From Planotetraspora sp. A-T 1434 (GTDB lineage Bacteria > Actinomycetota > Actinomycetes > Streptosporangiales > Streptosporangiaceae): a DNA stretch of 64,000 nucleotides. The translations under genes were made by a program, and so were the position numbers. The notes under the pieces were generated by a model that did no database searches, was not told the origin of the DNA, and saw nothing but the letters and a program-made list of their open reading frames with translations. Location of the stretch: NCBI RefSeq assembly GCF_025420585.1, contig NZ_JAOEGB010000007.1, forward strand, positions 124,001 through 188,000, written 5' to 3'. Shown here one piece after another: positions 6,412 to 26,186 of this stretch (positions within the stretch are counted from its first letter, which is position 1; each line of letters opens with the position of its first letter).

Positions 6412-7760
6412 CACGTCACCACCGGTTCCTGGGGGGCGACCTGCCTGCCCCGGGTCATGTGCCGCAGCACGTAGACGGTGGCCACCGTGAGCACAACGTA
6501 GACGAGGGAGACGACCACGAACCCGGCCCACAGGCCCGGCACGGGGTTGACCGCCTGGAGAGTACGCATCCTGCCGTACACCACCCAGGGCTGCCGGCCG
6601 ACCTCGGTCGCCGTCCAGCCGGCCTCGACCGCCACCACGGCGAGCACCCCGGCGATCGCCGCCAGCCGCAGGAACCACGGCGTGCGGGGCAGGTCGCGCC
6701 GCCGCCACCAGCTCCACGCCAGCCACGCCGACAGCAGCAGCAGGAGGAACCCGATGCCGACCATGGTCTCGAACGCCCAGTGGACGGGCGTGACCGGCGG
6801 CCGGTCCGCGGGGGGCGTGCGGTCCAGACCCTGGACGACCGCGCTCGGACGGTAGCCCACCAGCAGGGACAGCGCGCTGGGGATCTCCACGGCGTACCGC
6901 ATCCGGTCGTCCACGAAGACCCCGCCGAGGCTCAGCGGCGCGTACGGGCCGGTCCGGTAGACCCCTTCGAAGGCGGCCAGCTTGGCCGGCTGATATTCGG
7001 ACAGGAACCGCGCGGCGTAGTCGCCCACCACGATCTGCACCGGCGTGAGCACCGCCGCCATCGTGAACGGAACCACGAAACCGAGCCGGTGATAACGGTC
7101 GCGGTGTCCACGCAGCAGGGCCACCGCGTACACCCCCGCGGTGCCGAACCCGGACACCATGAAGGCGGCGAGGATCATGTGAAGGGTCTGCGGCGGCGTC
7201 GCGGGGTTGAACATCGCCGCCCAGGGCGACACATGCGTGATCCGGCCGCTCTCCAGGTCGAAGCCGCGCGGCTGGTTCATCCACGCGTTGGCCGAGACGA
7301 TGAAGAACGCCGAGGCCACACCGGCCACCAGGATCGGCACGCCGCTGAGGAGGTGGGCGCGGGGAGACAGCCTGCCCCATGCGTAGAGCCAGATCCCGAG
7401 GAAGATGGCCTCGATGAAGAAGGCGATGCCCTCCAACGCGAACGGCAGCCCGACGACCTGGCCGTAGACGCCCATCAGCCCCGGCCACAGCAGGCCCATC
7501 TCGAAGCTGAGAATGGTGCCGGAGACGGCGCCCACGGCGAACAGCACGCCGACCGCCTTGGCCCACCGCCTGGCCAGTCGGTGAAAGTCCTCGTCTCCGG
7601 TCCGTACGGCCCGCCACTCCGCGAACAGCAGAAGGGCGGGCATGCCGACGCCCAGGCAGGCCAGCACGATGTGCCAGCCGAGGGACAGCGCCATCTGCAT
7701 CCGGGCCGCGGCGAGGTCGGCCGGGCTCGCCGGACCCGCGAGGACGGTGAGCGACGTCAT
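6411..7760 (-). CDS. cydA: Cytochrome bd oxidase subunit I
   Basis: 449 residues with the family hallmarks: LSLGWHIVLACLGVGMPA (axial His near residue 30), GLPFALEGIAFFIEAIFLG, the TLHMILAAF segment containing the second axial His, and the quinol-site motif GWTATEVGRQPWVVYG. The Q-loop between the central helices is short, as in most Gram-positive enzymes. About nine membrane segments. It binds hemes b558, b595 and d and oxidises menaquinol. First gene of the cydAB operon; the 86-bp gap to the epimerase gene behind it is too short to tell where its promoter lies. Confidence 0.96.
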   Translation of the reverse strand: MTSLTVLAGPASPADLAAARMQMALSLGWHIVLACLGVGMPALLLFAEWRAVRTGDEDFHRLARRWAKAVGVLFAVGAVSGTILSFEMGLLWPGLMGVYGQVVGLPFALEGIAFFIEAIFLGIWLYAWGRLSPRAHLLSGVPILVAGVASAFFIVSANAWMNQPRGFDLESGRITHVSPWAAMFNPATPPQTLHMILAAFMVSGFGTAGVYAVALLRGHRDRYHRLGFVVPFTMAAVLTPVQIVVGDYAARFLSEYQPAKLAAFEGVYRTGPYAPLSLGGVFVDDRMRYAVEIPSALSLLVGYRPSAVVQGLDRTPPADRPPVTPVHWAFETMVGIGFLLLLLSAWLAWSWWRRRDLPRTPWFLRLAAIAGVLAVVAVEAGWTATEVGRQPWVVYGRMRTLQAVNPVPGLWAGFVVVSLVYVVLTVATVYVLRHMTRGRQVAPQEPVVT

Positions 7761-7846
7761 GGTCCGGACACCCCCGTGTGCAGGCCGGTCATGAGCAGGT
7801 CAGTGCCCCGGCCCCGATCGCGAGAACCGCGCGGAGAGGTATCGGG

Positions 7847-8824
7847 CTAGGAAACGACCGCGCGGTAAGAGGAGCCGTCGGCCGTGCCGAGCTCCTCCTC
7901 GAACCAGGCGATGGTGCGGCGGAGCCCGCTGACGGGGTCCACGCGAGGCCGCCAGCCGAGCCGCTCCGCGGCGAGCGAGGCATCCGGCCGCCGGACCGCC
8001 GGGTCATCGACGGGCCGCTCCACGAACGTGACGGGAGACGACGAGCCGGCCAGCCGGCGGATCGTCTCAGCCAGCTCGATCACGGACATCTCCGTGGGGT
8101 TGCCGATGTTGACCGGCCCCTCGAAGTCGCTCTCCGCCAGGGCCAGGACGCCCTCGACGGTGTCGGCGACGTAGCAGATCGACCGGGTCTGGCTGCCGTC
8201 GCCCGCGACGGTGATGGGCTCCCCGGTGAGGGCCTGCCGGATGAACGTCGGAATGGCCCGCCCGTCGTGCGGCCGCATCCGCGGGCCGTACGTGTTGAAG
8301 ATCCGCACGATGCCCGTGTCCGTGCCGTGGGAGTTGCGGTAGGCCGTGGTGAGCGACTCGGCGAAGCGCTTGGCCTCGTCGTAGACGCTGCGCGGCCCGA
8401 CCGGGTTGACGTTGCCCCAGTAGCTCTCCCGCTGCGGGTGCTCCAGCGGGTCGCCGTACACCTCGCTGGTGGAGGCGAGGACGAAACGCGCGCCCTTCTC
8501 CTTGGCGAGCCCGAGGGCGTGCAGCGTGCCGATGCTGCCGACCTTGAGCGTCTCGATCGGGTGCCGCAGGTAGTCGACCGGCGACGCGGCCGACGCGAAG
8601 TGGAGCACCAGGTCGACCTGCCCCGGCACATGGACGAACCCGGTGAGGTCGCACTCCAGCAGCCGGAAGGCCGGCCGTCCGATCAGGTGCTCGACGTTGC
8701 GGGGCGACCCGGTGAGGAAGTTGTCCATGCAGATCACCTCGGCGCCGCGGTCGAGGAGCCGCTCGCACAGGTACGAGCCGAGGAACCCGGCGCCGCCGGT
8801 GACCACCACGCGAAGACCGTTCAC
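7847..8824 (-). CDS. NAD-dependent epimerase/dehydratase (UDP-glucuronate decarboxylase-like)
   Basis: 325 residues, extended SDR. N-terminal NAD site VVVTGGAGFLGSYLCERL, catalytic STSEVYG followed by Y and K in SVYDEAKRFAE (YxxxK), and IVRIFNTYGPRM downstream, a set seen in UDP-xylose synthases and related nucleotide-sugar epimerases. GTG start at 8824 overlaps the stop of the GT9 gene upstream (GTGA). It is the last gene of the heptose operon and may act as the HldD-like epimerase or modify the nucleotide-heptose; sequence alone does not decide between these. Confidence 0.85.
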   Translation of the reverse strand: MNGLRVVVTGGAGFLGSYLCERLLDRGAEVICMDNFLTGSPRNVEHLIGRPAFRLLECDLTGFVHVPGQVDLVLHFASAASPVDYLRHPIETLKVGSIGTLHALGLAKEKGARFVLASTSEVYGDPLEHPQRESYWGNVNPVGPRSVYDEAKRFAESLTTAYRNSHGTDTGIVRIFNTYGPRMRPHDGRAIPTFIRQALTGEPITVAGDGSQTRSICYVADTVEGVLALAESDFEGPVNIGNPTEMSVIELAETIRRLAGSSSPVTFVERPVDDPAVRRPDASLAAERLGWRPRVDPVSGLRRTIAWFEEELGTADGSSYRAVVS

Positions 8825-9774
8825 CGCACACTCACCTCCAGCAGCCCGCGGGCCGCGTCGAGAACCTCCGGGACGTCGATTTCGAGCAGCCCAGGGTCGG
8901 GCCGGTCACCGTGGGGGTCGCCCGTCCGTCCCGTCCAGAGCGCGACATGACGGGGACTGCGGGGTGGCCCCCAGAGCTCGGGCGACACCGGCCCGCAGAG
9001 CACGACCGACGGCGTGCCGAGCCCGGCGGCCAGGTGAGACATCCCGGTGTCGCCGCAGATGACCAGCGCGGCGCGGGAGACCAGCGCGGCGAGGTCGGGC
9101 AGGTCCGTCCGCCCCGCGAGCACGCACGCGTCCGGCAGGCCGGCGAGCGCGGCCGTCTGACGCGCCAGCGCGCCCTCGGCGGGGGTTCCCGTGATCACCA
9201 CCTGATGGCCGAGGCGGCTCAGCTCGGCGGCCACCCGGGCGAACCGGTCCGGAGGCCACCGCCTGGCCTCGGAGGCGGCTCCCGGGTGGACCACCACCTC
9301 GCCCCCGCCGTACGCGCCGGGTCCCCGATCGCTCAGGGGTGCGTCGCGCAGATGGAGGTCCTCGGGGTCCGCGGCGATGCCGTACCACTCGAGGAGGGCG
9401 CACCACCGGCGCACCTCGTGCACGTCCGCGGGCCACGGCGGACCGTCCGCGCCGGGCACGGCGGGGTGCGCGTGGGTGAGCAGCCGCCCCGGCCGGATGC
9501 GGCGCAGCGCCATGATGCTCTGCGGGCCGCTCCCGTGCAGGTTGACCGCCACGTCGGGCGTCGAAAACGGCACCGGTCCCGGCCCGGACACGTCGAGCAG
9601 CTCGTCCACCGCGCCGATGAGTGGCAGCAGCCCGGCCAGATGCGCGGGCGTGGCAAGCACGATCCGGTGGTCCGGGTGGGCCCGGCGCAGCGCCCGCAGC
9701 GCCGGAACCCCGGTCAGCAGGTCGCCCAGCCCGAGCCCCCGGAGAACGAGCAGCACGGGTCTCGCTAGGGCCAT
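8821..9774 (-). CDS. Glycosyltransferase family 9 (heptosyltransferase-like)
   Basis: 317 residues from ATG 9774. Features of ADP-heptose:LPS heptosyltransferases: N-terminal VLRGLGLGDLLTGVPALRAL, a central VVVHPGAASEARRWPPDRFARVA (HPG.....R.WP motif) and a C-terminal ICGDTGMSHLAAGLGTPSVVL (the D-T-G-x-x-H-L-A donor-binding segment). These fit a GT-B fold using a nucleotide-heptose donor. The gene overlaps the upstream SDR by 10 bp and the downstream epimerase by 4 bp. It is one of two GT9 genes in the operon; the acceptor is unknown, since no LPS core would be present in an actinomycete. Confidence 0.88.
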   Translation of the reverse strand: MALARPVLLVLRGLGLGDLLTGVPALRALRRAHPDHRIVLATPAHLAGLLPLIGAVDELLDVSGPGPVPFSTPDVAVNLHGSGPQSIMALRRIRPGRLLTHAHPAVPGADGPPWPADVHEVRRWCALLEWYGIAADPEDLHLRDAPLSDRGPGAYGGGEVVVHPGAASEARRWPPDRFARVAAELSRLGHQVVITGTPAEGALARQTAALAGLPDACVLAGRTDLPDLAALVSRAALVICGDTGMSHLAAGLGTPSVVLCGPVSPELWGPPRSPRHVALWTGRTGDPHGDRPDPGLLEIDVPEVLDAARGLLEVSVR

Positions 9775-10481
9775 GAGGTCTCCGTGGAGGGGCAGACGAC
9801 GAGCTCCCGGACCTCGCACCCCTGGGGCTGGCTCAGCGCGAAGACGATCGTCGCGGCGACGTCCTCGGGCTGGTTGAGCCGGGCGTCCGGCCCCGGCTTG
9901 TACTGCTCGTCACGTCCCTCGAAGAAGTTCGTGTGCATGCCGCCCGGGATGAGCAGCGTCACCCCGACCTGGCCGGCGAGCTCCGCGGCGAGCGCCCGGG
10001 TGAAGCCGACCACGCCGAACTTGGCGGCGCAGTACGCCGTCGCGTCGCTCACGGCCCGGATACCCAGGGTGGAGGCGCAGGTCACGACCTTGCCCCCCGA
10101 TGGGCCCCCCGCTGGGCCCCGCGATTCCCGCAGGTACGGCAGGGCCGCCCGGACCACGGAGGCGGTGCCGAGCAGGTTGACCTGGATCACCCGGTCCCAG
10201 GCGTCGGCGGGGACGTCCTCCAGCCGCCCGCAGGCGTCGATGCCGGCCGCCGTCACGACGCCGTCGAGGCCGCCCGCCCGCTCGGCCAGCTCGCGGACCG
10301 CCCGCTCGGCCTGCTCCCGGTCGGACAGGTCGGCCCGCGCGAAGTCCTTGACCTGGTCCGCGTCACCGTCCGGCGCGTTGACGTCGATCAGGAGGGGCCG
10401 TCCCCCCGCCTTGGCGACCGCGGCGGCGGTGGCCCGGCCGAGACCGGACGCGCCTCCGGTGATCAGGATGTTCCCGACCAT
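9765..10481 (-). CDS. Short-chain dehydrogenase/reductase
   Basis: 238 residues, classical SDR. NILITGGASGLGRATAAAVAKAGG is the TGxxxGxG cofactor site; the catalytic set is S near CASTLGIRA and YCAAKFGVVGFTRALA (YxxxK). ATG 10481 was chosen because AGGAG lies seven bases upstream; an in-frame ATG at 10511 has no such site. It sits between hldE-like and GT9 genes, so a role in oxidising or reducing the heptose moiety is plausible but unproven. Confidence 0.85.
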   Translation of the reverse strand: MVGNILITGGASGLGRATAAAVAKAGGRPLLIDVNAPDGDADQVKDFARADLSDREQAERAVRELAERAGGLDGVVTAAGIDACGRLEDVPADAWDRVIQVNLLGTASVVRAALPYLRESRGPAGGPSGGKVVTCASTLGIRAVSDATAYCAAKFGVVGFTRALAAELAGQVGVTLLIPGGMHTNFFEGRDEQYKPGPDARLNQPEDVAATIVFALSQPQGCEVRELVVCPSTETSWP

Positions 10482-10507
10482 GTGCTGTCTCCTGTCAGAT
10501 TGTCGGA

Positions 10508-11863
10508 TCATGAGGCCGCCTGGACGGCGGCGATGAGTCCGGTCGTCGAATAGCCCGGCACGCTCGGAAGGATGACGATCTCGCCACCGGCCCGGCGGAC
10601 GGCCTCCGCCTCCGGCATCGCCCGGCCGGTGTAGTCGCCGCCCTTCACCCACACGTCGGGGCCGAGACGCTCGATCAGCCCCGAAGGGGTGTCCTCGTCG
10701 AAGACCGCCACGGCGTCCACGCAGCCGAGCGCGCGCAGCACCTCCACGCGGTCGCGCTCGCCGACGACCGGGCGGGCCGGCCCCTTCAGACGGCGGATCG
10801 AGTCGTCGCTGTTCAGGCAGACGATCAGCGCGTCGCCGAGCGCCCTGGCCCTGCGGAGAAGGCTCACGTGGCCGGCGTGGAGCAGGTCGAAGCAGCCTCC
10901 CGTGGCGATGAGCCGTCCGCCTGCGGCTCGGACGGCGGCGGTCACCTCGAAGGCCGAGCCCCCCGCCAGGGTCGGGGTCCTGGCCTCCGGCGCGGTCAGG
11001 CGGATCGCCGCCGCCCCGCCTTCCTCGACGAACCGGGTGGCCTCGCCGACCGCCGTCACGACCGCGTCCTCGGTGGACGCGCCCTCCGCCAGAGCGACCG
11101 TCGCCGCCGCGGCGAACCTGTCCCCCGCGCCGCACGCGTCCCGGCCGACGGCCACCTCGGGCGGCGGCATCCGCACGAAACGGCCGCCCCGGAACGCCAG
11201 CACCGCGCCGCGCTCCCCCAGCGTGACGGCCACGGCCTCGGCGCCGAGGTCGCGGACCAGGCGGCGGGCCGCCCGGTCCGGCGTCGTGTACGGCTCCGCG
11301 CACAGCAGCCGGGCCTCCGCCTCGCTGGGCGTGACGAGCGCGCAGCCCGGCACGGGCAGTGAGCCGCGCGGATGCGGATCCCAGACGATCGGCGTCCCAC
11401 GATCAGCGCCGAGATGAGAGCGGTACGGCTCGGCCACGCCGCCGCCGTAGTCGGCCACCAGGATCGCGCTCGCGCTCCTCAGGGCGGCGACGGCCCGCGC
11501 CATCGCCGAGCCGTCGGGGCGGCCGTCTCCGGTGTCGATCCTGAGCAGGGTCTGCCCCTTCGCGCGGATCCGCGTCTTGCGGACGGTGGTGCCCCGCAGC
11601 GGCAGCCGTACCACCTCGACCGACGTCGAGAGCAGGCTCTCCAGGAGTCGTCCGGACGGGTCGTCGCCGATCGCGGTGATCAGGACCACCTCGGTGCCGT
11701 CCCGCGCGGCGAGGAGCGCGGCGAGGCCCGCGCCTCCCGGCCGGTGGTGTTCGGCCCGGCCGTCGACCACGGGCACGGGAGCGTCCGGGCACAGGCGGCT
11801 CGCGTCACCCTCGACGTCGACGTCGAGCAGCGAGTCCCCCAGAACGACGACGGGTCCGGTCAC
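10508..11863 (-). CDS. hldE: Bifunctional heptose-7-phosphate kinase / heptose-1-phosphate adenylyltransferase
   Basis: 451 residues from GTG 11863, which overlaps the gmhA-like stop (GTGA). Residues ~1-305 form a PfkB-type kinase with RPGGAGLAALLAARDG and the C-terminal catalytic motif GRDACGAGDRFAAAAT (GAGD). Residues ~315-451 form a nucleotidyltransferase with GGCFDLLHAGHVSLLRRARALGD (HxGH) and VKGGDYTG. This two-domain fusion matches E. coli HldE (RfaE), which makes heptose-1,7-bisphosphate and then ADP-heptose. The partners needed in between (gmhA-like, gmhB-like) are present in the same locus. Confidence 0.93.
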   Translation of the reverse strand: MTGPVVVLGDSLLDVDVEGDASRLCPDAPVPVVDGRAEHHRPGGAGLAALLAARDGTEVVLITAIGDDPSGRLLESLLSTSVEVVRLPLRGTTVRKTRIRAKGQTLLRIDTGDGRPDGSAMARAVAALRSASAILVADYGGGVAEPYRSHLGADRGTPIVWDPHPRGSLPVPGCALVTPSEAEARLLCAEPYTTPDRAARRLVRDLGAEAVAVTLGERGAVLAFRGGRFVRMPPPEVAVGRDACGAGDRFAAAATVALAEGASTEDAVVTAVGEATRFVEEGGAAAIRLTAPEARTPTLAGGSAFEVTAAVRAAGGRLIATGGCFDLLHAGHVSLLRRARALGDALIVCLNSDDSIRRLKGPARPVVGERDRVEVLRALGCVDAVAVFDEDTPSGLIERLGPDVWVKGGDYTGRAMPEAEAVRRAGGEIVILPSVPGYSTTGLIAAVQAAS

Positions 11864-12411
11864 GCGCAGGCCTCCTCGATCACGTCGCAGAGCATGTGAA
11901 TGATGGTGAGATGCACCTCCTGCACGGTCGCCGTGTCCCCGGCGGGCACGGCGAGGACCTCGTCGCAGAGGTCGGCCAGCGGGTTGGGCGCGGGACCGGT
12001 CAGCGCCCAGGTCGTGAGCCCGCACTCGCGCGCGGCCTCGGCCGCCGCCGTGACGTTGGGGCTCGCTCCGCTTGTCGACAAGCAGATGAGCACGTCCCCG
12101 GGGCGGCCGTGGGCGCGCACCTGCCGGGCGTACACCTCGTCCATGCCGAAGTCGTTGCCGATCGCGGTCATCGACGAGGTGTCGGCGTGTAACGGGATCG
12201 CCGCGTAGGGCCGCCTGTCGGTGCGGTAGCGCCCCACCAGCTCGGCCGTCAGGTGCTGCGCCTCCGCCGCCGAGCCCCCGTTGCCGCAGGCCAGCAGCCG
12301 TCCCCCGCCGGTCAGCACGGCGGCCAGCTTGAGGCCCCAGGCGTAGATCCTGGGCGTGTCCGGGTCCACCGCCGCCAGGGCGGTGCTCAGCCGGGCCAGA
12401 TGAGGATGCAT
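11860..12411 (-). CDS. gmhA: SIS-domain sedoheptulose-7-phosphate isomerase
   Basis: 183 residues, usual GmhA size. The sugar-phosphate isomerase signature LLACGNGGSAAEAQHLTAELVGR is followed by PLHADTSSMTAIGNDFGMDEVYARQV and LICLSTSGASPNV (the SIS phosphate-binding serines), and ends with QEVHLTIIHMLCDVIEE, carrying the His of the active site. Reaction: sedoheptulose 7-phosphate to D-glycero-D-manno-heptose 7-phosphate. Three bases separate it from the upstream GT4, and it overlaps hldE by 4 bp. Confidence 0.93.
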   Translation of the reverse strand: MHPHLARLSTALAAVDPDTPRIYAWGLKLAAVLTGGGRLLACGNGGSAAEAQHLTAELVGRYRTDRRPYAAIPLHADTSSMTAIGNDFGMDEVYARQVRAHGRPGDVLICLSTSGASPNVTAAAEAARECGLTTWALTGPAPNPLADLCDEVLAVPAGDTATVQEVHLTIIHMLCDVIEEACA

Positions 12412-12414
12412 GGC

Positions 12415-13611
12415 TCAGCCTCCCGCTGCGGCGAGCCGGCCGAGCCGGCCGCGTGCCAGATTTCGGTAAACGGACTCGGTCTGGGCGGCCACCCTCGGCC
12501 AGCCGTACCTGGCCCGGGCTCTGCGGACGCCGGCCGCCGACATCGCGGCCCGCAGGTCCGGCCGGGCCAGGACGTCGCGGAGCGCCCGCGACAGGGCGCG
12601 CGGCTTACGGGGCGGGACGAGCAGCCCGCACCCGGCGACCGTGTCGAGATGGCCGCCGACGGCCGACGCGATCACCGGCACCCCGCACGCCAGGGCTTCG
12701 AGCGGCACCATGCCGAACGGCTCGTACCAGGGCACGGTCGCCAGCACGTCGGCGGACCGCATCAGCGCGGGCACCTCGGTCCGGCCCACGCTGCCGATCA
12801 GCCGCACCCGGCCGCCCAGGCCGTAGCCCGTCGCCAGCGTGCGCAGCCGTACGGTCTCCTCGTCGCCGGGCGCGCCGCCCGCGATGACCAGCTCGGCGTC
12901 CGGGACCTGGCGCATCGCGCGGACGACCGTGTCGACGCCCTTTCGGGGCACCATCCGGCCGATGCTGAGCACACGCGGCCGCCGTGACGTCCGGGGCGCG
13001 ACCGGACCGTCGGGACGGAACAGGTCGAGGTCGACCCCGCACGGCACGACCGCCACCCGGTCACTGGACACGCCCATGGCCGCCAGCTCCCTCACCTCGT
13101 CGGCGCAGGTGGCGATGACCGCGTCCGCCCGCCGTCCCACGTCACGCTCGATGGCGATCCGCGTCGACGGGCTGGTGTCCGACGTGCCCTGCCAGCGCCG
13201 CTTGACCGTGCCGAGCGCGTGGAACGTCTGCACCACCGGGATGCCGAGGTCCTCGGCCGCCATCAGCGTGGCCAGCCCGCTCATCCAGAAGTGCGCGTGC
13301 GCGACTTCCGGCCTGCTCTCCGCCCATCTCCGCGCGAGGTGCTCGGCGAAGGCCGGCATGTACGGCAGGAGCTCATCCTTGGGCAGCGGCTCCGGGGGCC
13401 CGGCGGGCACGTGGTCCACCGTCACGCCGGGCGCCATGGCGACGGTGTCCGGCTGGTCCTCGCCGGTGCGCCTGGTGTGAACGACGACCTCGTTGCCCCG
13501 CTGGGCCAGGGCGACCGCGAGCGCCGCGACGTGGACGTTCTGCCCGCCCGCGTCGACGCCGCCGAGGGCCGCCAGCGGGCTCGCGTGCTCCGATATCAGG
13601 GCGATCCTCAT
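12415..13611 (-). CDS. Glycosyltransferase family 4
   Basis: 398 residues. Starts RIALISEHASPLAALGGVDAGGQNVHVAALA (glycine-rich GGQN acceptor/donor loop seen in sucrose-phosphate synthase-like and MshA-like GT4 enzymes), with RVLSIGRMVPRKGVDTVVRAM and the C-terminal EPFGMVPLEALACGVPVIASAVGGH (E-x7-E retaining motif). Cytoplasmic GT-B fold. ATG 13611 overlaps the stop of the GT9 upstream. Belongs to the heptose operon; donor and acceptor are unknown. Confidence 0.9.
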   Translation of the reverse strand: MRIALISEHASPLAALGGVDAGGQNVHVAALAVALAQRGNEVVVHTRRTGEDQPDTVAMAPGVTVDHVPAGPPEPLPKDELLPYMPAFAEHLARRWAESRPEVAHAHFWMSGLATLMAAEDLGIPVVQTFHALGTVKRRWQGTSDTSPSTRIAIERDVGRRADAVIATCADEVRELAAMGVSSDRVAVVPCGVDLDLFRPDGPVAPRTSRRPRVLSIGRMVPRKGVDTVVRAMRQVPDAELVIAGGAPGDEETVRLRTLATGYGLGGRVRLIGSVGRTEVPALMRSADVLATVPWYEPFGMVPLEALACGVPVIASAVGGHLDTVAGCGLLVPPRKPRALSRALRDVLARPDLRAAMSAAGVRRARARYGWPRVAAQTESVYRNLARGRLGRLAAAGG

Positions 13612-14639
13612 GGAACTCCCTCCCTCACGACGGCGAGGCGGCGGACCGCTTCGACGACCTGTTCACCGGTGACCGAAGACAGGCAGGGGTGGCCGGGAAC
13701 CGGGCAGTTCCTCGCCCTCGTCCCCCGGCACGGCGCGTCCTGGTCGCCCAGGAGCACGGACGGCACGCGGTACGGCGCCCAGCGCGCGGCGGGCACGACG
13801 GGGGCGAACAGGCTGACCACCGGAGCGCCCACCGCCGCCGCGAGATGCGCCGGACCGGTGTTGGCCACCACGACGGCGGACGCTCCCCCGAGCACCGCGG
13901 CCAGCTCCGCGAAGGTCGTCGCCCCGCCCAGGTCGGCCGCGTGCGATCCGGCCACCCGGGCGGTGAGCCCGCGCTCGCCGGGGCCGCCCGTGACGACGAC
14001 CCGCTCGCCCGCCGCGGCGAGGTCGCCCACGGCGGCGGCCCAGTGGTCCGGCTGCCAGGCCCGCGCGGGGGCGGTGGTCCCCGGATGCACCACCACGTAG
14101 CCGGGCGGCCCGGTGAGGTGTTCCATGTCCGGCAGGGGTCGCCGCACGGCGAGCGACCCGTCGTCGCCCGGGGGAAGCTCGAATCCGGCGGCCCGGGCGA
14201 GGCCGAGCATCCGTTCGGCCTCGGGGACGTCCACGGTCTCGTCCACCACATGGCGCAGATCGAGGAGCGATCCCGGATAGTCGGCGCTGATCGCCGCGAT
14301 CCTCGGCGTCCCCGCCAGCCGCAGCAGCAGCGCCGTCGGCAGGGCCGACTGGTGGAACGAGGTGAAGATCAACGCCATGTCCGGGGCGATCTCCCGCACG
14401 TCCTGGATCAGCCGTACGGCATGCGTGTTCGTCACCGGAAGCGGCTCGGCGTCGATCCACGGCGTCCGCCACTGCAGCACCCGGTCCACACCGGGAAGCA
14501 ACTCGCCGGCGGCCCGCCCATGCGGCCCGGCCAGCAGCACGACCTCCCTCGACTGCGCGGCCACGGCACGGATCGCCGGGCCGGCGAGCAGGACGTCGCC
14601 CGCGTTGTCGGGTCGCACCACCAGCACGGTCCCGATCAC
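13608..14639 (-). CDS. Glycosyltransferase family 9 (heptosyltransferase-like)
   Basis: 343 residues from GTG 14639, which overlaps the GT2 stop (GTGA). Motifs: VLVVRPDNAGDVLLAGPAIRAVA at the N-terminus, VVVHPGTTAPARAWQPDHWAAAV in the middle, and VVVANTGPAHLAAAVGAPVVSLF (N-T-G-P-x-H-L-A) in the C-terminal donor site. A cysteine-containing tail (GTRARNCPVPGHPCLSSV) is typical of some actinobacterial members. Second heptosyltransferase-like enzyme of the cluster, distinct in sequence from the one at 8821-9774. Confidence 0.88.
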   Translation of the reverse strand: MIGTVLVVRPDNAGDVLLAGPAIRAVAAQSREVVLLAGPHGRAAGELLPGVDRVLQWRTPWIDAEPLPVTNTHAVRLIQDVREIAPDMALIFTSFHQSALPTALLLRLAGTPRIAAISADYPGSLLDLRHVVDETVDVPEAERMLGLARAAGFELPPGDDGSLAVRRPLPDMEHLTGPPGYVVVHPGTTAPARAWQPDHWAAAVGDLAAAGERVVVTGGPGERGLTARVAGSHAADLGGATTFAELAAVLGGASAVVVANTGPAHLAAAVGAPVVSLFAPVVPAARWAPYRVPSVLLGDQDAPCRGTRARNCPVPGHPCLSSVTGEQVVEAVRRLAVVREGVP

Positions 14640-15766
14640 AGGCGCCCCCGAACGCGCGCTTCGCCGCGGAGCCGGTGGGCGCACGCGACCGGTGGGATGA
14701 CGACGCTCGTGACGGCCATGCGGGCGACCTCTTCCGGCGTATGCGGCCCCGGGGCGATCCGCGCCCAGGCGAACTCCGCGGTGAGGCCGAGCCACGCCAG
14801 ACCCGCCGCGCAGGCCGCGCCCCGGAGTCCCACTGGCCATGCAGCCACCGTCAGGGACCCCAGCCCCGCGCGGGCTCTCTTCCCGGCTCTCTTGCCGGTG
14901 TGATCCCCCGGCCGTTGAGTGGCGGCGGCGAGGGCTATCGCAAGCAGGCCGGCGGCCGTGGTGAGGGCATGCCGTCTGAGGCGGCCGGGATGGCCTCCGA
15001 TCAGGGCACGCCAGCCGGGGCCGTGCAGGTGGCGCATCAGCGCGTCGGCGGCGTTGCCCCTCTGGAAGCGGACGCTCGACCAGAACCCGTCGTCGCGGAC
15101 CGGGTGACGGGTGACCCGCCGCCCTCTCACGAGCGAGAACCCCTCCCGCTCGACGCGTAAGGCGAGGTCGCCGTCCTCGCGGTAGGCGCCGGTGAACCGT
15201 TCGTCGAAGCCGCCCGTGGCCTCCAGCGCCGTCCGCCGGTAGGCCATGTCCGCGGTGATCCACCGGGCCCCGGCGAGGCCCGCCGTGTTGCGCTCGGCGT
15301 CGGTGGGCCGGCGGCCGGCCGGCAAGGGGACCTCCAGGCGGCCCTGGCTGCCGCCCACGTGCTCGGACAGGCCCGTGAGATCCTCCCTGAGGGTCTCCAG
15401 CCATCCGGCGCCCGGCACGACGTCGTCGTCCAGGAACGCGATCCAGGGCGTCGTCGCCGCCCTCCACCCGGCATTGCGGGCGGCGGCGGGCCCGCGACCC
15501 CCTGAGCGAAGCACGCGCACGCCTTCCGGGACGGCCAGCGTCGACAGCCCGGCGGAAGGCCCCGGTCTGTCGTCCACGACGACGATCTCGGGTCCCGGGC
15601 CGATGGCGGCGATCGTCGCGGCCAGGCTCGGACGGCCCACGGTCGGAATCACCACGGTGAACAGCCCCGTCGGTCTGAACTTCCGGACCCCGGACGCGAG
15701 ATCAGGCCGGGCATGGGCCGTCGTGCTGCCCGCCACCAGGCCGTTCGCCGTCATGTCGTCCGTCAT
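14636..15766 (-). CDS. Glycosyltransferase family 2
   Basis: 376 residues from ATG 15766, overlapping the carbamoyltransferase stop (ATGA). The GT-A core shows FTVVIPTVGRPSLAATIAAI, IVVVDDRPGP, AARNAGWRAATTPWIAFLDDDVVPG (DDD metal site) and GFDERFTGAYREDGDLALRVEREG (the ED of family 2). The C-terminal third carries two hydrophobic stretches (ALTTAAGLLAIALAAAT and AACAAGLAWLGLTAEFAWA), so the enzyme is probably membrane-attached. The frame continues open upstream into the carbamoyltransferase, which I reject as coding. Confidence 0.9.
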   Translation of the reverse strand: MTDDMTANGLVAGSTTAHARPDLASGVRKFRPTGLFTVVIPTVGRPSLAATIAAIGPGPEIVVVDDRPGPSAGLSTLAVPEGVRVLRSGGRGPAAARNAGWRAATTPWIAFLDDDVVPGAGWLETLREDLTGLSEHVGGSQGRLEVPLPAGRRPTDAERNTAGLAGARWITADMAYRRTALEATGGFDERFTGAYREDGDLALRVEREGFSLVRGRRVTRHPVRDDGFWSSVRFQRGNAADALMRHLHGPGWRALIGGHPGRLRRHALTTAAGLLAIALAAATQRPGDHTGKRAGKRARAGLGSLTVAAWPVGLRGAACAAGLAWLGLTAEFAWARIAPGPHTPEEVARMAVTSVVIPPVACAHRLRGEARVRGRL

Positions 15767-17397
15767 CCGGCGAACACCGCCCCTCGGCGGACCACGTACG
15801 GCCCGAGCACCAGGACGTCCACGGGGGCGGAGCCGAAGCACTCCAGGGCGTCCCGGGGGTCGTCCACCATGGGCCGGCCGGCCGTGTTGAGGCTCGTGTT
15901 GACCACCACCGGCAGTCCGGTCCTGGTCTCGAACTCCTCGAGCATCCGGGCCAGCAGAGGATCCCGGCCGCGCTCCACCGTCTGAACCCTGGCGGTGCCG
16001 TCCACGTGGACGACGGCGGGGATGCGGTCGCGCCAGCCGGGCCGTACGTCGTGGACGAACAGCATGTACGGGCTCGACATGGGTCCACGCTCGAAGATCT
16101 CGGGTGCCCGCTCCGCGAGCACCATCGGGGCGATCGGGCGGAACTGCTCGCGGCCCTTCACGTCGTTCAGCCGCTCGGTGTTGGCCGGCCTGCCGGGATG
16201 GGCGAGCAGCGAACGGCGGCCGAGGGCCCGCGGGCCATACTCGCTGCGTCCCTGGAACCAGGCCACGATGCGGTCGCCGGCCAGCTCGGCGGCGACGGTC
16301 GCGGCCAGGTCGGCGGGCCGCTCGTACGGCACGCGCGCGACGTCGAGCCACGCGGCCAGCTCCTCGTCGCTCCAGCCGCGCCCGAGGTCGGCGCCTGGCA
16401 TGGGGGCGACCGTGTCACCGTGGGCCTGGGCCAGGTGGAGTGCGCCGCCGAGCGCGGTGCCGGAGTCCCCGGCGGCGGGCTGGATCCAGATGTCCTCGTA
16501 GGGCCCCTCGGCCAGCAGCCGCGTGTTGGCGACGCAGTTGAGCGCCACTCCGCCGGCCATCGTGAGGTAGCGCGCGGCCGTCCGCCCGTGCAGCCAGCGC
16601 GCGAGGTCCAGGAGGACCTCTTCCAGGCGGACCTGCACGCTCGCCGCGAGATCGGCGTGGTCGGCCGTCCACCGCTCGCCCTTGGCCAGGGCCTTGGCGT
16701 AGACACTCCAGTCGATGGGCTCGACGCGGAAGCCCCCGTCCCCGGTCGGGTAGATGAGCTCGCGCAGTTCCCTCAGAAATCGCGGCTCACCGTACGACGC
16801 GAGCGCCATGACCTTGTATTCGTCGCTGGACCGGAGGAAGCCCAGGTGCTGGGTGACCTCCTCGTACATGAGGCCCAGCGAGTGCGGCAGGCTCTGGCTG
16901 GCCAGGACGGTCAGCTCACCGTCGCGGTAGTGGCCGGCCAGGTGCGACACCGCCTCCCCGCGCCCGTCGCAGACCAGCACGGCCGACTCGCGGTACGGCG
17001 CGGCCAGGCCGGCCGAGGCCGCGTGGGCGATGTGGTGCGGCACGTACCGCACCTGGGCGGAGTCGAGCCCCGGAAGCGCCGTGGCGAGGAAGTTGGGCGC
17101 GCGCCGGGCGTAGGTGGTGCGCAAGTCCTCCCACCGCTCGTCGAGCCCTTCCCCGCCGACCAGATCGGGGTCGTAGGAGTAGGCGACGGCGTCAAGATCC
17201 TCGGGGCGCAGCCCCGCCTGCTCCAGACACCACGCGGCGGCCTGCTCGGGCAGCTCCCAGGCCGAGAAGGGCACCGGACGCTTGCCGTGCTTACGTCGGC
17301 TGAACCGCTCCTCCTCGGCGGCGGCGACCACCTCACCGTCCACAACCAAAGCAGCAGCTGGATCATGGAAGATCGCGTTTATCCCCAGGAATCGCAT
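15763..17397 (-). CDS. NodU/CmcH-type carbamoyltransferase
   Basis: 544 residues. N-terminal GINAIFHDPAAALVVDGEVVAAAEEERFSRRKHGK and the metal-binding VPHHIAHAASAGLA (HxxHA) belong to the Kae1-like domain that makes carbamoyl-adenylate; the C-terminal FQGRSEYGPRALGRRSLLAHP and GREQFRPIAPMVL are hallmarks of the YrdC-like/carbamoyltransferase part. Relatives O-carbamoylate sugars (NodU, TobZ, nebramycin) from carbamoyl phosphate and ATP. It is the first gene of the nine-gene operon, with GGAGG seven bases before its ATG. A carbamoylated heptose or hexose in the product is an inference. Confidence 0.92.
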   Translation of the reverse strand: MRFLGINAIFHDPAAALVVDGEVVAAAEEERFSRRKHGKRPVPFSAWELPEQAAAWCLEQAGLRPEDLDAVAYSYDPDLVGGEGLDERWEDLRTTYARRAPNFLATALPGLDSAQVRYVPHHIAHAASAGLAAPYRESAVLVCDGRGEAVSHLAGHYRDGELTVLASQSLPHSLGLMYEEVTQHLGFLRSSDEYKVMALASYGEPRFLRELRELIYPTGDGGFRVEPIDWSVYAKALAKGERWTADHADLAASVQVRLEEVLLDLARWLHGRTAARYLTMAGGVALNCVANTRLLAEGPYEDIWIQPAAGDSGTALGGALHLAQAHGDTVAPMPGADLGRGWSDEELAAWLDVARVPYERPADLAATVAAELAGDRIVAWFQGRSEYGPRALGRRSLLAHPGRPANTERLNDVKGREQFRPIAPMVLAERAPEIFERGPMSSPYMLFVHDVRPGWRDRIPAVVHVDGTARVQTVERGRDPLLARMLEEFETRTGLPVVVNTSLNTAGRPMVDDPRDALECFGSAPVDVLVLGPYVVRRGAVFAG

Positions 17398-17436
17398 CGG
17401 TTTACCTCCGTTGCGCGTGGGTGTCTGGTTACCGAG

Positions 17437-17448
17437 AGAAGCGCTTCT
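17437..17448. promoter_or_regulatory. 12-bp palindrome, candidate LacI-type operator
   Basis: AGAAGCGCTTCT is a perfect palindrome lying 40 bp upstream of the carbamoyltransferase ATG in the divergent promoter region. GAAGCGCTTC cores are typical of LacI-family sites in actinomycetes. No LacI gene is in the window. Confidence 0.5.
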
Positions 17449-17525
17449 AAACGCTCTTTTGCGGAGAAGTCAACGTGAATAGGGCACGTTCTCAACGATC
17501 GTCACGCTAGGTAATCAACCAGGGT

Positions 17526-17550
17526 GTTTGCCCTCGTACCCGGCGGGTAG
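17526..17550 (+). promoter_or_regulatory. Candidate SigB-type (stress sigma) promoter for gmhB-like gene
   Basis: GTTT at 17526-17529 and GGGTAG at 17545-17550 are separated by exactly 15 bases. This matches the GTTT-N14-16-GGGTA/T pattern of streptomycete SigB-like promoters. It is 34 bp upstream of the GTG start at 17584. Inference from motif only. Confidence 0.5.
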
Positions 17551-17583
17551 CCGGGGCGGCGAAGCGAAAGAGAGGAAGGTGCC

Positions 17584-18126
17584 GTGTCACGCCACCTCGA
17601 CCGCCCGGCCCGGCCCGCCGCCGTGCTGTTCGATCGTGACGGAACCTTGATCCACGACGTTCCGTACAACGCGGACCCCGGCAAGGTCGAGCCGGTGCCG
17701 GGGGCACGGGCGGCGCTGGACCGGCTCCGCCGGGCGGGCGTGCCGGTGGGCGTGGTCAGCAACCAGTCGGGCGTCGCCAAGGGCCTCATCAGCCCCGCCG
17801 CTCTGAACGAGGTCAACGCCCGCGTCGAGGAGTTGCTCGGCCGTTTCGACGTATGGGCCGTGTGCCCCCACGACGACGCGGACGGCTGCGACTGCCGCAA
17901 ACCGGCCCCCGGACTGGTCCTCCGAGCCGCGGCGGCGCTCGGCGTGAGCCCCCGGGACTGCGTGGTGATCGGGGACATCGGCCGCGACATCGAGGCCGCG
18001 GGGGCGGCCGGGGCACGGGGCATCCTCGTGCCCACCCCCATGACGCTGCCCACGGAGGTGGCGGCGGCCCCCGAGGTGGCGCCGGACCTCGCCGCCGCGG
18101 TGGACCGGCTGATCGCCACGAGCTGA
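17584..18126 (+). CDS. gmhB: D-glycero-D-manno-heptose-1,7-bisphosphate 7-phosphatase (HAD family)
   Basis: 180 residues from GTG 17584, which has AGAGGAAGG upstream. HAD-IIIA signatures: AAVLFDRDGTLIHDVPYNADP (DxDGT), GVVSNQSGVAKGLIS, the zinc-binding CPHDDADGCDCRKPAPGLVLRA (C-x-H...C-x-C-RKP) and VVIGDIGRDIEAAGAAGA. The zinc loop and RKPxPG fit GmhB, although histidinol-phosphate phosphatases share the fold. With the gmhA- and hldE-like genes on the opposite strand it completes the set for ADP-D-glycero-beta-D-manno-heptose. Confidence 0.9.
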   Translation: MSRHLDRPARPAAVLFDRDGTLIHDVPYNADPGKVEPVPGARAALDRLRRAGVPVGVVSNQSGVAKGLISPAALNEVNARVEELLGRFDVWAVCPHDDADGCDCRKPAPGLVLRAAAALGVSPRDCVVIGDIGRDIEAAGAAGARGILVPTPMTLPTEVAAAPEVAPDLAAAVDRLIATS

Positions 18127-18242
18127 AACGTGCCGACACGATCACGGGGCATAAGGCCGCCGAACGAGGACAGAGGTCCTGGGGACAGGCGAAACACCGG
18201 GAGACGGGAATACGGGGAGATGGAACGGGGAGCGGTGATCCG

Positions 18243-19190
18243 ATGAGAATCCTGGTCTGGCACGTTCACGGGTCGTGGACCACCTCGTTCGTGCAGGGGG
18301 GTCACGACTACCTCGTGCCCCTCACACCCGACCGTGGGCCCGACGGGCGGGGGCGTGCGCTGACCTACCCCTGGCCGGCCAACGTGCACGAGGTGCCCCA
18401 CGACCGGTTGTCCGGCGAGGATGTGGACGTGGTGGTCTACCAGCGGCCCCACGAGATCGAGCTCGCGCGGCGCTGGCTCGGGCGTGACGTGCCCGGGGTC
18501 TACGTGGAGCACAACACCCCGGCCGGCGACGTCCCCAAGACCCGGCACCACCTTGCCGGCCGGGACGACATCCCGCTCGTTCACGTGACGAACTTCAACG
18601 AGCTGTTCTGGGACTCGGGACGGGCGCCGGCCCGGGTCATCGAGCACGGCGTCGTCGACCCCGGCTGCCTCTACACCGGCGAGCTGCCCAGGGCGGGCGT
18701 CGTCGTGAACGAGCCGATCCGGCGGTGGCGGGTCGCCGGGACCGACCTGCTTCCCGCGTTCGCCGCCGCCGCTCCTCTCGACGTGTACGGCATGCGGGTC
18801 GGCGGCCTGCCCGCGAAGCTGGGCGTGGTGGACCGGATGGACGCCTTCGAGGATCCGCCCCAGAGCGCGATGCACGCCGAGCTCGCCCGCCGGCGGGTCT
18901 ACCTGCACCCGTATCGATGGACCTCGCTCGGGCTCGCGCTCATCGAGGCCATGATGCTCGGCATGCCGGTCGTGGCCCTGGCCACCACGGAGGCCGTGGA
19001 GGCGGTGCCGCCGGAGGCGGGCGTCGTGTCGACCAAGGTCACCACGCTGATCGATGCCCTGGGGGCCTTCGCGGCCGACCCCGAGCTGGCGGCCCGGGCC
19101 GGCAAGGCGGCACGGGCAGCGGCCCTCGCCCGCTACGACCTCGGCCGATTCCTCTCGGACTGGGACCGGCTGCTGCGCGACGTCGTGTGA
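18243..19190 (+). CDS. Glycosyltransferase (GT4-like)
   Basis: 315 residues from ATG 18243, preceded by a GGGGAG run in the 116-bp gap after gmhB. The N-terminus MRILVWHVHGSWTTSFVQGGHDYLVPL and VYVEHNTPAGDVPKTRHHLA form the acceptor half; the C-terminal HPYRWTSLGLALIEAMMLGMPVVALATTEAVEAVP has the E-x-M...GMPV layout of GT4 donor sites. Related proteins often sit in actinobacterial heptose clusters. Transcribed with gmhB, divergent from the nine-gene operon. Confidence 0.82.
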   Translation: MRILVWHVHGSWTTSFVQGGHDYLVPLTPDRGPDGRGRALTYPWPANVHEVPHDRLSGEDVDVVVYQRPHEIELARRWLGRDVPGVYVEHNTPAGDVPKTRHHLAGRDDIPLVHVTNFNELFWDSGRAPARVIEHGVVDPGCLYTGELPRAGVVVNEPIRRWRVAGTDLLPAFAAAAPLDVYGMRVGGLPAKLGVVDRMDAFEDPPQSAMHAELARRRVYLHPYRWTSLGLALIEAMMLGMPVVALATTEAVEAVPPEAGVVSTKVTTLIDALGAFAADPELAARAGKAARAAALARYDLGRFLSDWDRLLRDVV

Positions 19191-19269: not shown

Positions 19270-19803
19270 GTGTCCACCATGATGCGCAACCTGGTGAACG
19301 GCGCAGTCGGCGGCGCCCTCGGGACCGCCGTGATGAGCGCGGTGATGATGGCGGGAGACCGAGCCGGCGTGATGGGGACGCCCCCACCCAAACGGATCAT
19401 GCGGGTGACGCTGCCCGGCCAGAAACACCGGCCCAAGCCAGGCGAGGACGTGCTGGCGACGATCGCCCACTACGCGTTCGGCAGCACGGCCGGCGCCGTG
19501 CTCGGCCTGGTGACGGGCGGCAGGCGGATCCCGCTCCCGCTCGGAGCGGCGTACGGCCTGGCGATCTACATCGCGAGCTACCAGGGCTGGGTGCCGCGCA
19601 TGGGCGCCCTTCCGCCGGCGACCCGGGACAACTTCGGCCGCCAGGCGATCCTCGCCCTGGGGCACATCATGTACGGCACGTCGCTCGCGATCTCGATGAA
19701 CCGGCTCAAGACCGAGAAGATCGCCGGTATGCGGATGCCGACCCGCGGTTACGAGGCCGAGCGCGTCGAGCGGGTGGCCCGGCGTCCCCAGCCCGCGTAC
19801 TGA
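19270..19803 (+). CDS. Small multi-pass membrane protein, unknown function
   Basis: 177 residues from GTG 19270; ATG starts at 19255 and 19279 are also possible because the GGAGGG run lies in between. It has an N-terminal NLVNGAVGGALGTAVMSAVMMAG segment and at least two more hydrophobic stretches (YAFGSTAGAVLGLVTGG; PLGAAYGLAIYIASYQGWV), and resembles the YagU/DUF1440-like inner-membrane group. Its end (19790-19815) is a 13-bp tandem duplication containing the stop. The last 55 bp overlap the convergent glycosyltransferase gene. Confidence 0.7.
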   Translation: MSTMMRNLVNGAVGGALGTAVMSAVMMAGDRAGVMGTPPPKRIMRVTLPGQKHRPKPGEDVLATIAHYAFGSTAGAVLGLVTGGRRIPLPLGAAYGLAIYIASYQGWVPRMGALPPATRDNFGRQAILALGHIMYGTSLAISMNRLKTEKIAGMRMPTRGYEAERVERVARRPQPAY

Positions 19804-21167
19804 GCCCGCGTACTGAGCGCCGCCAGCCCGGCCGCGAGGCATGCCAAGGGCACGACGGGCAGGACGTACCGGTGGTCGAAGTCCAGCACGGCGACCGGCC
19901 CGGCCAGGAGTGTGACGGCGGCCCCCCACGGCAGCGCCACCGTCCCCGGCCGCAGCACGGCGCCCGCTGCTCCCAGGAGGAGGATCGCGGCCAGCACCGG
20001 CCCGCGCAGGTAGGCCACGTGCTGGTAGGCGACGAGCAGACCGGCGTACGGCCGGACCGACCGCATGCCGGTGATATCCGGGTCGTACTCCCGTCTCACC
20101 TGGTCGACGAGCGGCTGCCCGCTGGGAAGCGGCCAGGTTCCGTGCGCGAAGCCGAACGCGGGAACGGTCCGCGCCGGGTGGGCGATCGGGGTCCAGGCGA
20201 ACGCGAGCGCGGTGTCCTTCGCCACGTCAAGAAGATAGTCCAGCGGCTGGGCGGCGATGGCGCGCAGCGCGAAGGTCCGAGCCAAGTCGTTGTGGGCGAA
20301 CCGGTCACCGGGCAGCCGGTTGATCGGGGCCTCGGGCGCCCAGACGTATTCGGAGGCGGCGTCGAGGACGGTCCCGTTCGGGCAGAACGGGACCAGGGCG
20401 GGCGCGGGCCGGATGACCGCGCAGTCCGCGAAGGTCATGGTGCGGGCCCACAGCGCCACCCCGTCCGCGCCGCTGAGCGTGAACTCGCCGTAGCGCTCGC
20501 CGTACCAGGCCGCGTAACCCGCCAGTGGCAGCAGTCCGGCCACGGCCAGCACCGCCAGGCGTCGCCAGGAGACTCGGCGTACGGCGAGCACGAGCAGGGC
20601 GAGCACGATCAGCGGCAGCGCGATCGTCCGGGTCAGCGCGGCTCCCGCGAGTAGCAGGCCCGCGACGGCGACCGCGCGCGCCGACGGCGCCGGCCACCAG
20701 GTCAGCGCGGCTGTCGCGGAGACGACGAGCAGGATGAAAAGGGTGTCGGACAGCACGGCGTGCTCCAGCCTGAGGAACGACGCGTCGAACAGCACCGGCG
20801 CGGCGGCGAGCAGAGCGCCCCAGCCGGGCAGCCCCTTACGGCGCAGCAGCGCATAGACGATGACGCCCGTCGCCAACCCCATGGCGTGCTGGACGGCGAC
20901 GACCACGCCCACGCTGTGGAACGGCAGCAGGGCCCGTAACAGCAGCGGGTAGCCGAGCGGATGGAACGCCCGCGCCGGGCCCAGGTGGACGGCGTTGTCC
21001 AGGTAGGTGAACGAGTCGTACCAGTACAGCCGGGCAGGCGGATAACCGAGCATGACCACGGCCCGGAGCGCGGCGGCGGCCGCGAGCGCGATCGTGAAGG
21101 CGCGATGGCGCCCGGGAACGGCCCGGAGAGAGCGGGCCGAGGCCATGGGACGGGCGTGGGTGAGCAT
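19749..21167 (-). CDS. Polytopic membrane glycosyltransferase (GT39/PMT-like)
   Basis: 472 residues using ATG 21167; ATG 21146 and upstream starts remain possible because no strong SD is seen. N-terminal membrane helix (AFTIALAAAAALRAVVMLG) is followed by YWYDSFTYLDNAVHLGPARAFHPLGYPLLLRAL, the acidic first loop expected of lipid-linked GT-C enzymes, then roughly nine further hydrophobic segments. It probably uses a polyprenyl-phosphate sugar outside the membrane. The C-terminal 18 residues are read from DNA that also encodes the end of the convergent gene, in the duplicated 13-bp unit, so the native C-terminus may be shorter. Confidence 0.78.
   Translation of the reverse strand: MLTHARPMASARSLRAVPGRHRAFTIALAAAAALRAVVMLGYPPARLYWYDSFTYLDNAVHLGPARAFHPLGYPLLLRALLPFHSVGVVVAVQHAMGLATGVIVYALLRRKGLPGWGALLAAAPVLFDASFLRLEHAVLSDTLFILLVVSATAALTWWPAPSARAVAVAGLLLAGAALTRTIALPLIVLALLVLAVRRVSWRRLAVLAVAGLLPLAGYAAWYGERYGEFTLSGADGVALWARTMTFADCAVIRPAPALVPFCPNGTVLDAASEYVWAPEAPINRLPGDRFAHNDLARTFALRAIAAQPLDYLLDVAKDTALAFAWTPIAHPARTVPAFGFAHGTWPLPSGQPLVDQVRREYDPDITGMRSVRPYAGLLVAYQHVAYLRGPVLAAILLLGAAGAVLRPGTVALPWGAAVTLLAGPVAVLDFDHRYVLPVVPLACLAAGLAALSTRAQYAGWGRRATRSTRSAS
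19790..19815. repeat. 13-bp tandem duplication over the stop of the 19270 gene
   Basis: AGCCCGCGTACTG occurs twice in direct succession, so the C-terminal residues and the TGA are duplicated. Confidence 0.85.
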
Positions 21168-21425
21168 GGCGAATCCGATCGTCGGAGGAAGACCCGCGCA
21201 GGCCGGCAGTGGCATGCGGCGGTAAGAGAAGGGGTCCGGCGGGGAACGAACAACGGAGCGAGCCAGAGCTCCAGAGGTCAGCGCCCCGGAACCCGCCGTG
21301 GCCAACTCGGAGCCCTGCGAAGAACCGCCGATCCTTCGAGCCGAGTGAGCTCAGGCCCTGTAGGTCAGCACTCGCGGATCAGCACTCGCGGATCAGCGAC
21401 GCGGGAATCCGCGGACCTCTCGGGA

Positions 21426-26176: not shown

Positions 26177-26186
26177 GGGTCGCTCC

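Follow-up and report, generated by a model that had tools for sequence, protein, structure and literature searches.

A nucleotide-heptose locus of an actinomycete as a probable counterpart of the Streptomyces cwg operon

The cell wall glycan (cwg) operon of Streptomyces coelicolor comprises 12 genes, SCO6179-6190, and is regulated by sigma-E and by vancomycin (PMC6767563, PMC5839063, and PMC5882110). Its gene cwgH is described as a phosphoheptose isomerase and cwgI as a bifunctional synthase/transferase (PMC5839063), and cwgE as a putative heptosyl transferase (PMC5882110). Here, we describe a locus at positions 7847-19190 of a 64,000-nucleotide stretch of DNA (the window) from the 7.8 Mb genome of the actinomycete Planotetraspora sp. 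A-T 1434. Its genes are predicted to form an intact nucleotide-heptose set, with well-supported steps up to the nucleotide sugar, and the locus is very probably a counterpart of the cwg operon with a rearranged gene order, making a carbamoylated heptose envelope glycan. Counterparts of 10 of the 11 window proteins, sharing 46-74% identity across 80% or more of the length, are each found in 53-80 of 80 Streptomyces-group loci, a set that represents the best 80 of 559 loci and includes Streptomyces coelicoflavus, not S. coelicolor.

Correspondence with the cwg operon

Nine genes form an operon on the minus strand (7847-17397), in the order UXS-type epimerase, GT9a, SDR, HldE, GmhA, GT4, GT9b, GT2, and carbamoyltransferase. 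A divergent pair on the plus strand (17584-19187), outside this operon, consists of gmhB followed by a second GT4 gene (GT4b). Seven of the eight operon junctions overlap by 4-10 bases and the eighth has a 3-base gap, so that the operon of nine genes, about 9.5 kb and nearly gapless, proposed in the initial annotation of this DNA holds. All the proteins listed there (GmhA, HldE, GmhB, two GT9, two GT4, GT2, SDR, a UXS-like, and a NodU-type protein) are present within 7847-19190, and the UXS-like label is borne out by the closest solved relatives, which are UDP-glucuronate decarboxylases (341-344 bits versus 137 bits for the next kind). The features of the locus are as follows.

7847-8824, minus strand: UXS-type NAD-dependent UDP-glucuronate decarboxylase; Pfam Epimerase; cwgA-like by position and kind
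8821-9774, minus strand: GT9 glycosyltransferase a (GT9a), cwgJ-like; PF01075 at 94.8 bits, DTG motif retained
9765-10511, minus strand: short-chain dehydrogenase/reductase (SDR); PF00106, matched in a longer frame; outside the typical Streptomyces 12-gene order
10508-11863, minus strand: HldE, predicted D-glycero-D-manno-heptose-7-P kinase / heptose-1-P nucleotidyltransferase, cwgI-like; PRK11316 at 269.7 bits, residues 4-449
11860-12411, minus strand: GmhA, predicted sedoheptulose-7-phosphate isomerase, cwgH-like; TIGR00441 at 173 bits, 1tk9 at 157.9 bits
12415-13611, minus strand: GT4 glycosyltransferase, MshA-like, cwgG-like; PF13439 and PF00534, TIGR03449 at 244.6 bits, below the cut-off of 462.5
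13608-14639, minus strand: GT9 glycosyltransferase b (GT9b), cwgE-like; PF01075 at 83.5 bits; AlphaFold model with a predicted local distance difference test score (pLDDT) of 89.9
14636-15766, minus strand: GT2 glycosyltransferase, cwgC-like; PF00535 at 53.3 bits
15763-17397, minus strand: NodU/TobZ-type O-carbamoyltransferase, cwgB-like; PF16861 and PF02543; solved relatives TobZ, GdmN, and novobiocin carbamoyltransferase
17430-17453, minus strand: conserved element GTTTAGAAGCGCTTCTCTCGGTA preceding the carbamoyltransferase gene; palindromic core at 17437-17448
17584-18126, plus strand: GmhB, predicted D,D-heptose-1,7-bisphosphate 7-phosphatase, beta type, zinc loop intact, cwgD-like; 4pnh at 88.6 bits
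18243-19187, plus strand: GT4-fold glycosyltransferase GT4b, cwgF-like, the cluster marker; PF00534 at 35.9 bits, C-terminal part only

The 80 Streptomyces-group loci do not represent 80 genomes: one strain occurs twice, and two Actinacidiphila and one metagenome-assembled genome are included. The UXS-type epimerase is 59-68% identical to its gene in 63 of these loci, and the SDR has a match in just three of the 80, at 34% identity. Gene order was counted on 57 of the named loci, leaving out 23 of at most 20 kb; 29 of the 57, together with a Streptomyces plasmid locus (L079), share the order epimerase, carbamoyltransferase, GT2, gmhB, GT9, GT4b, GT4, gmhA, hldE, GT9, and two further glycosyltransferases. 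The published positions of cwgH, cwgI, and cwgE fit the places of gmhA, hldE, and a GT9 gene in the Streptomyces loci. Furthermore, the published cwg promoter, allowing up to 6 mismatches in 29 positions, is present in 10 of the 80 loci, and in nine of them it stands 118-188 bases ahead of the aligned epimerase start. The match in S. coelicoflavus has 3 mismatches. The reversed promoter and ten letter-shuffled versions, used as controls, match none of the 80 loci.

The initial annotation had ranked the locus as its best candidate for an undescribed system. This claim is rejected given the Streptomyces counterpart of 10 of the 11 genes, which is common in related bacteria, and because the cwg operon is already in print the locus has no significance as a new system. 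Since the gene order in the window is rearranged, an SDR is added, and counterparts of cwgK and cwgL are not found between 7847 and 19190, we term the locus a counterpart and not a copy of the operon. A structure of the cwg glycan was not found in the literature searched, where most subscription papers were beyond reach.

Heptose enzymes, glycosyltransferases, and their distribution

HldE matches the bifunctional HldE model across 446 residues with 270 bits, compared to 62 bits for ribokinase, the best non-heptose sugar-kinase model. Among solved structures, its N-terminal half is related to the heptose-7-P kinase 4e84 and its C-terminal half to the putative cytidylyltransferase 5x9q. The best solved relatives of GmhA are phosphoheptose isomerases. 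GmhB scores 114 bits with the beta-type model versus 38 bits with the alpha-type model, and its best solved relative is a D,D-heptose-1,7-bisphosphate phosphatase.

The GAGD and HxGH motifs of HldE, reported as intact in the initial annotation, and the zinc loop of GmhB, noted there as well, are confirmed and nearly invariant. HldE retains GAGD and HxGH in 131 of 131 orthologues, and GmhB its DxD and CxH..CxC zinc ligands in 144 of 144. In GmhA, Glu57, Asp87, Gln164, and His172 are retained in 139 of 139 orthologues and His167 in 138. We take these motif residues of the three enzymes to be catalytic. The counts come from 172 loci, after dropping matches below 45% identity or 85% coverage, and the sequences are largely distinct (GmhA 136 of 139, HldE 130 of 131, GmhB 142 of 144, and carbamoyltransferase 130 of 132).

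The pathway had been called complete. GmhA, HldE, and GmhB would indeed reach the nucleotide sugar, but no HldD-type 6-epimerase scores over the cut-off in the whole genome (best 120 bits versus 275). HldD is needed solely for the L-epimer, and the expected donor is therefore the D-glycero form. The UXS-type epimerase was considered as an HldD-type heptose epimerase and rejected, with 59 bits for TIGR02197 and far better matches to UXS relatives. A fusion of GmhA with HldE, of the kind suggested by the tridomain synthetases in the title of a cited study, was likewise rejected, with none among 122 loci carrying both genes.

The residue between Gly and STT in the nucleotidyltransferase domain of HldE is Tyr in the window and Arg in 105 of 131 orthologues. 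When Arg occupies this site of the (F/L)XXGXSTT motif, synthesis of CDP- and UDP-heptose is reportedly possible (PMC11461863). As the window HldE has Tyr instead, it is predicted to favour ATP. Two points count against this prediction: of the 132 aligned sequences, 92 begin the motif with Tyr and 23 with F or L, and Arg is described as not strictly required for promiscuity (PMC11461863).

Both GT9 proteins score above the PF01075 cut-off, and profiles of both find the heptosyltransferases WaaC and WaaF, that of GT9a (14 orthologues) matching WaaF 1psw with 93.8 bits. The best fold matches of the AlphaFold model of GT9b are WaaF, a Veillonella GT9, and WaaC. In the C-terminal part of GT9b, at residues 304-319, three cysteines and a PGHPC stretch are invariant among 19 aligned orthologues. 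The model of GT4b (pLDDT 88.4) matches the folds of BshA and PimB'.

Within the class Actinomycetes, the GT4b marker is present in 99 of 394 genomes and 46 of 138 genera, and HldE in 93 of the 394 genomes; 92 genomes have both, seven GT4b alone, and one HldE alone. We compared 92 loci, made up of 80 fetched around the marker, 10 of 20 from an earlier set, the locus on the Streptomyces plasmid, and that of Nonomuraea; of the 99 marker genomes, 14 fall outside this set. The genes seen include hldE in 84 loci, gmhB in 85, gt9b in 82, gmhA in 75, and the carbamoyltransferase in 69, numbers that are depressed by contig and stretch ends, and the SDR tally also takes in unrelated SDRs of 26-35% identity. 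The epimerase and the second GT9 were scored with Streptomyces queries too, and their identities to the window come from a separate comparison. The gene-order search across actinobacterial genomes suggested in the initial annotation shows that the window's arrangement is shared by 14 loci, including one of Nonomuraea gerenzanensis, with the epimerase seen in six of the 14, a distribution that suggests a Streptosporangiaceae origin for the window.

GT4b also has relatives next to GT9 genes on a Clavibacter plasmid (L081, 55% identical) and a Burkholderia replicon (L082, 39%), but tblastn with HldE, GmhA, and GmhB of the window found no match in the 17-21 kb fetched around them. The genome of the window contains a second heptose-type locus (G000:C52:40001-60000, L045, positions 7221-16845) with a GT4, two GT9 genes, an HldE-like protein 39% identical to that of the window, an SDR, and a transketolase, a possible source of sedoheptulose-7-P. 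A topoisomerase IB gene lies between its two GT9 genes. Second HldE copies of this kind are also found in four other genomes (G003, G009, G012, and G030).

Upstream of the carbamoyltransferase gene, CTCTCGGTA is present in all 15 aligned sequences (the window and 14 relatives). The longer element listed above, with up to 3 mismatches, occurs in 12 of the 14 relatives and four other loci, and its copy at 17430-17453 is the sole match in the genome. The palindromic core is AGAAGCGCTTCT, followed by CTCGGTA; allowing one mismatch, the core alone also occurs in 12 of 100 shuffled windows. The element is a possible operator or promoter.

Beside the cluster, a probable membrane protein is encoded at 19749-21305 (minus strand), with a weak match to PMT mannosyltransferase (20.2 bits versus a cut-off of 22.7). 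A gene for an extracytoplasmic function (ECF) sigma factor is located nearby (22316-22876, minus strand), adjoined by a frame with no Pfam match (21426-22448, minus strand) that could encode a membrane anti-sigma-like protein. Further away, at 25205-26894 (minus strand), a gene for a histidine-specific methyltransferase (PF10017) adjoins a class-II glutamine amidotransferase-like gene, a pair that presumably resembles an ergothioneine cluster.

Product of the locus and competing explanations

The proposed route would begin with GmhA converting sedoheptulose-7-P to D-glycero-D-manno-heptose-7-P, which the kinase domain of HldE would turn into the beta-1,7-bisphosphate and from which GmhB would strip the 7-phosphate. 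Homology with intact motifs argues for these steps and for the nucleotide-sugar step that completes the first four. The two GT9 enzymes may then transfer heptose, and the GT4 and GT2 enzymes further sugars, one of which could be xylose derived from the UXS product (step 5), before the carbamoyltransferase would decorate a sugar hydroxyl (step 6). Finally, the oligosaccharide would join an envelope glycan whose production rises in response to cell-wall stress (step 7), a step carried over by analogy from what is published on cwg regulation in S. coelicolor. The GT9 donor and the carbamoylated sugar are those that we infer, as are the polymer, its acceptor, and its export. A heptose-containing, possibly carbamoylated glycan, as the initial annotation interpreted the locus, is the best reading of enzymes that are closest to heptose enzymes; what does not stand is the novelty attached to it.

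Several observations weigh against the assignment to a cwg-type envelope glycan. The cwg promoter is not found within 6 mismatches in 70 of the 80 named loci, and the link to SCO6179-6190 runs through other Streptomyces, the promoter, and product names, the S. coelicolor genes being outside the comparison. Most cwg product names in print are generic ('putative transferase'), and the 'putative dehydratase' of cwgD (PMC5839063) fits GmhB only if the name is loose. Counterparts of the last two cwg glycosyltransferase genes (K and L) are found neither in 7847-19190 of the window nor in the relatives' loci with the window's arrangement, and the window carries its extra SDR. No clear sigma-E promoter is found in the window, where the single consensus-like match (17638-17663) lies within gmhB, at a distance of 240 bases from where the carbamoyltransferase gene starts. 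Domain scans of the cluster genes recognised no flippase, polymerase, or ligase. GmhA, HldE, and GmhB miss the NCBIfam equivalog cut-offs (173 versus 209, 270 versus 521, and 114 versus 178 bits, respectively), as do the kinase (131 versus 345) and nucleotidyltransferase (181.3 versus 181.5) domains of HldE, and we therefore regard them as diverged members. Finally, GT9b has Asn for Asp and Arg for Lys with respect to WaaC, and GT9a has Arg for Lys with respect to WaaF, so that the donor could differ. The structure prediction that the initial annotation proposed for both GT9 sites covers GT9b, whose model is closest to WaaF and WaaC.

The lack of a recognised polymerase or flippase in the cluster would also fit a heptose placed on a protein or on a small or lipid acceptor, giving a glycoprotein or glycolipid in place of a wall polymer. 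One GT4 is MshA-like and GT4b is close in fold to BshA and PimB', all three of which we take to be enzymes that glycosylate small or lipid acceptors, and the GT9b profile weakly matches (22 bits) TibC, presumably a protein heptosyltransferase. However, an acceptor cannot be read from fold likeness, and the five glycosyltransferases suggest a multi-sugar chain. We consider such an acceptor unlikely.

The solved relatives of the carbamoyltransferase (TobZ, GdmN, and novobiocin carbamoyltransferase) belong to antibiotic pathways, as would be expected if the cluster made a small diffusible heptose natural product, comparable to septacidin or hygromycin B, and not an envelope glycan. For septacidin, which is fed by ADP-heptose, the use of heptose by Streptomyces has already been published (PMC11461863 and PMC10948575). 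Nevertheless, the scanned cluster genes contain no polyketide synthase (PKS), nonribosomal peptide synthetase (NRPS), or nucleoside-antibiotic domain, in line with the initial annotation as regards PKS and NRPS, and the Streptomyces counterpart is controlled by an envelope-stress sigma factor. The spread of the marker over 46 of 138 genera with recurring neighbours is easier to reconcile with a core function than with a specialised metabolite, and a diffusible product is improbable.

That GmhA and HldE have diverged to use another phosphosugar and yield a different activated sugar is highly improbable: the sub-cut-off scores and the replacement of Lys by Arg and of Asp by Asn in the GT9 sites would allow it, but the solved structures nearest to the kinase half, to GmhA, and to GmhB are those of heptose enzymes, the motif residues are retained in 131-144 orthologues, and the three genes travel with GT9 genes.

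Returning to the carbamoylated envelope glycan, we tentatively propose, with some doubt, that the HldE-type pathway in Actinomycetes mainly builds one conserved D,D-heptose glycan of this kind, the cwg product. The nucleotide would vary by lineage, with ADP/CDP/UDP promiscuity where, as in most lineages, HldE has Arg and ADP specificity with the Tyr of the window.

Comparison with known systems

The window shares with the ADP-L-glycero-D-manno-heptose pathway of Gram-negative lipopolysaccharide (LPS) GmhA, a bifunctional HldE, a beta-type GmhB, and GT9 enzymes with intact motifs. In contrast to that pathway (GmhA, HldE, GmhB, and HldD, with WaaC and WaaF), the genome of the window is without HldD over the cut-off, and the carbamoyl and UXS steps are extra. 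To our knowledge, an LPS acceptor is not expected in an actinomycete.

The heptose pathways of septacidin and hygromycin B reportedly begin at sedoheptulose-7-P, going by the title of a 2018 study by Tang listed in PMC10948575. They are antibiotic pathways, whose genes lie outside our comparison, whereas the window cluster combines a carbamoyltransferase with GT9, GT4, and GT2 enzymes and is found repeatedly in different genera. The vertebrate receptor ALPK1 senses nucleotide heptoses (PMC11461863 and PMC11573728), and their production by many Gram-positive actinomycetes, if true, would be relevant to immunology through this receptor.

The window differs from the cwg operon in its divergent gmhB and GT4b genes, the extra SDR, the absence of the last two glycosyltransferases, and another conserved upstream element. 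As judged on the Streptomyces-group loci, the two have in common the epimerase, the carbamoyltransferase, GT2, GmhB, two GT9, two GT4, GmhA, and HldE.

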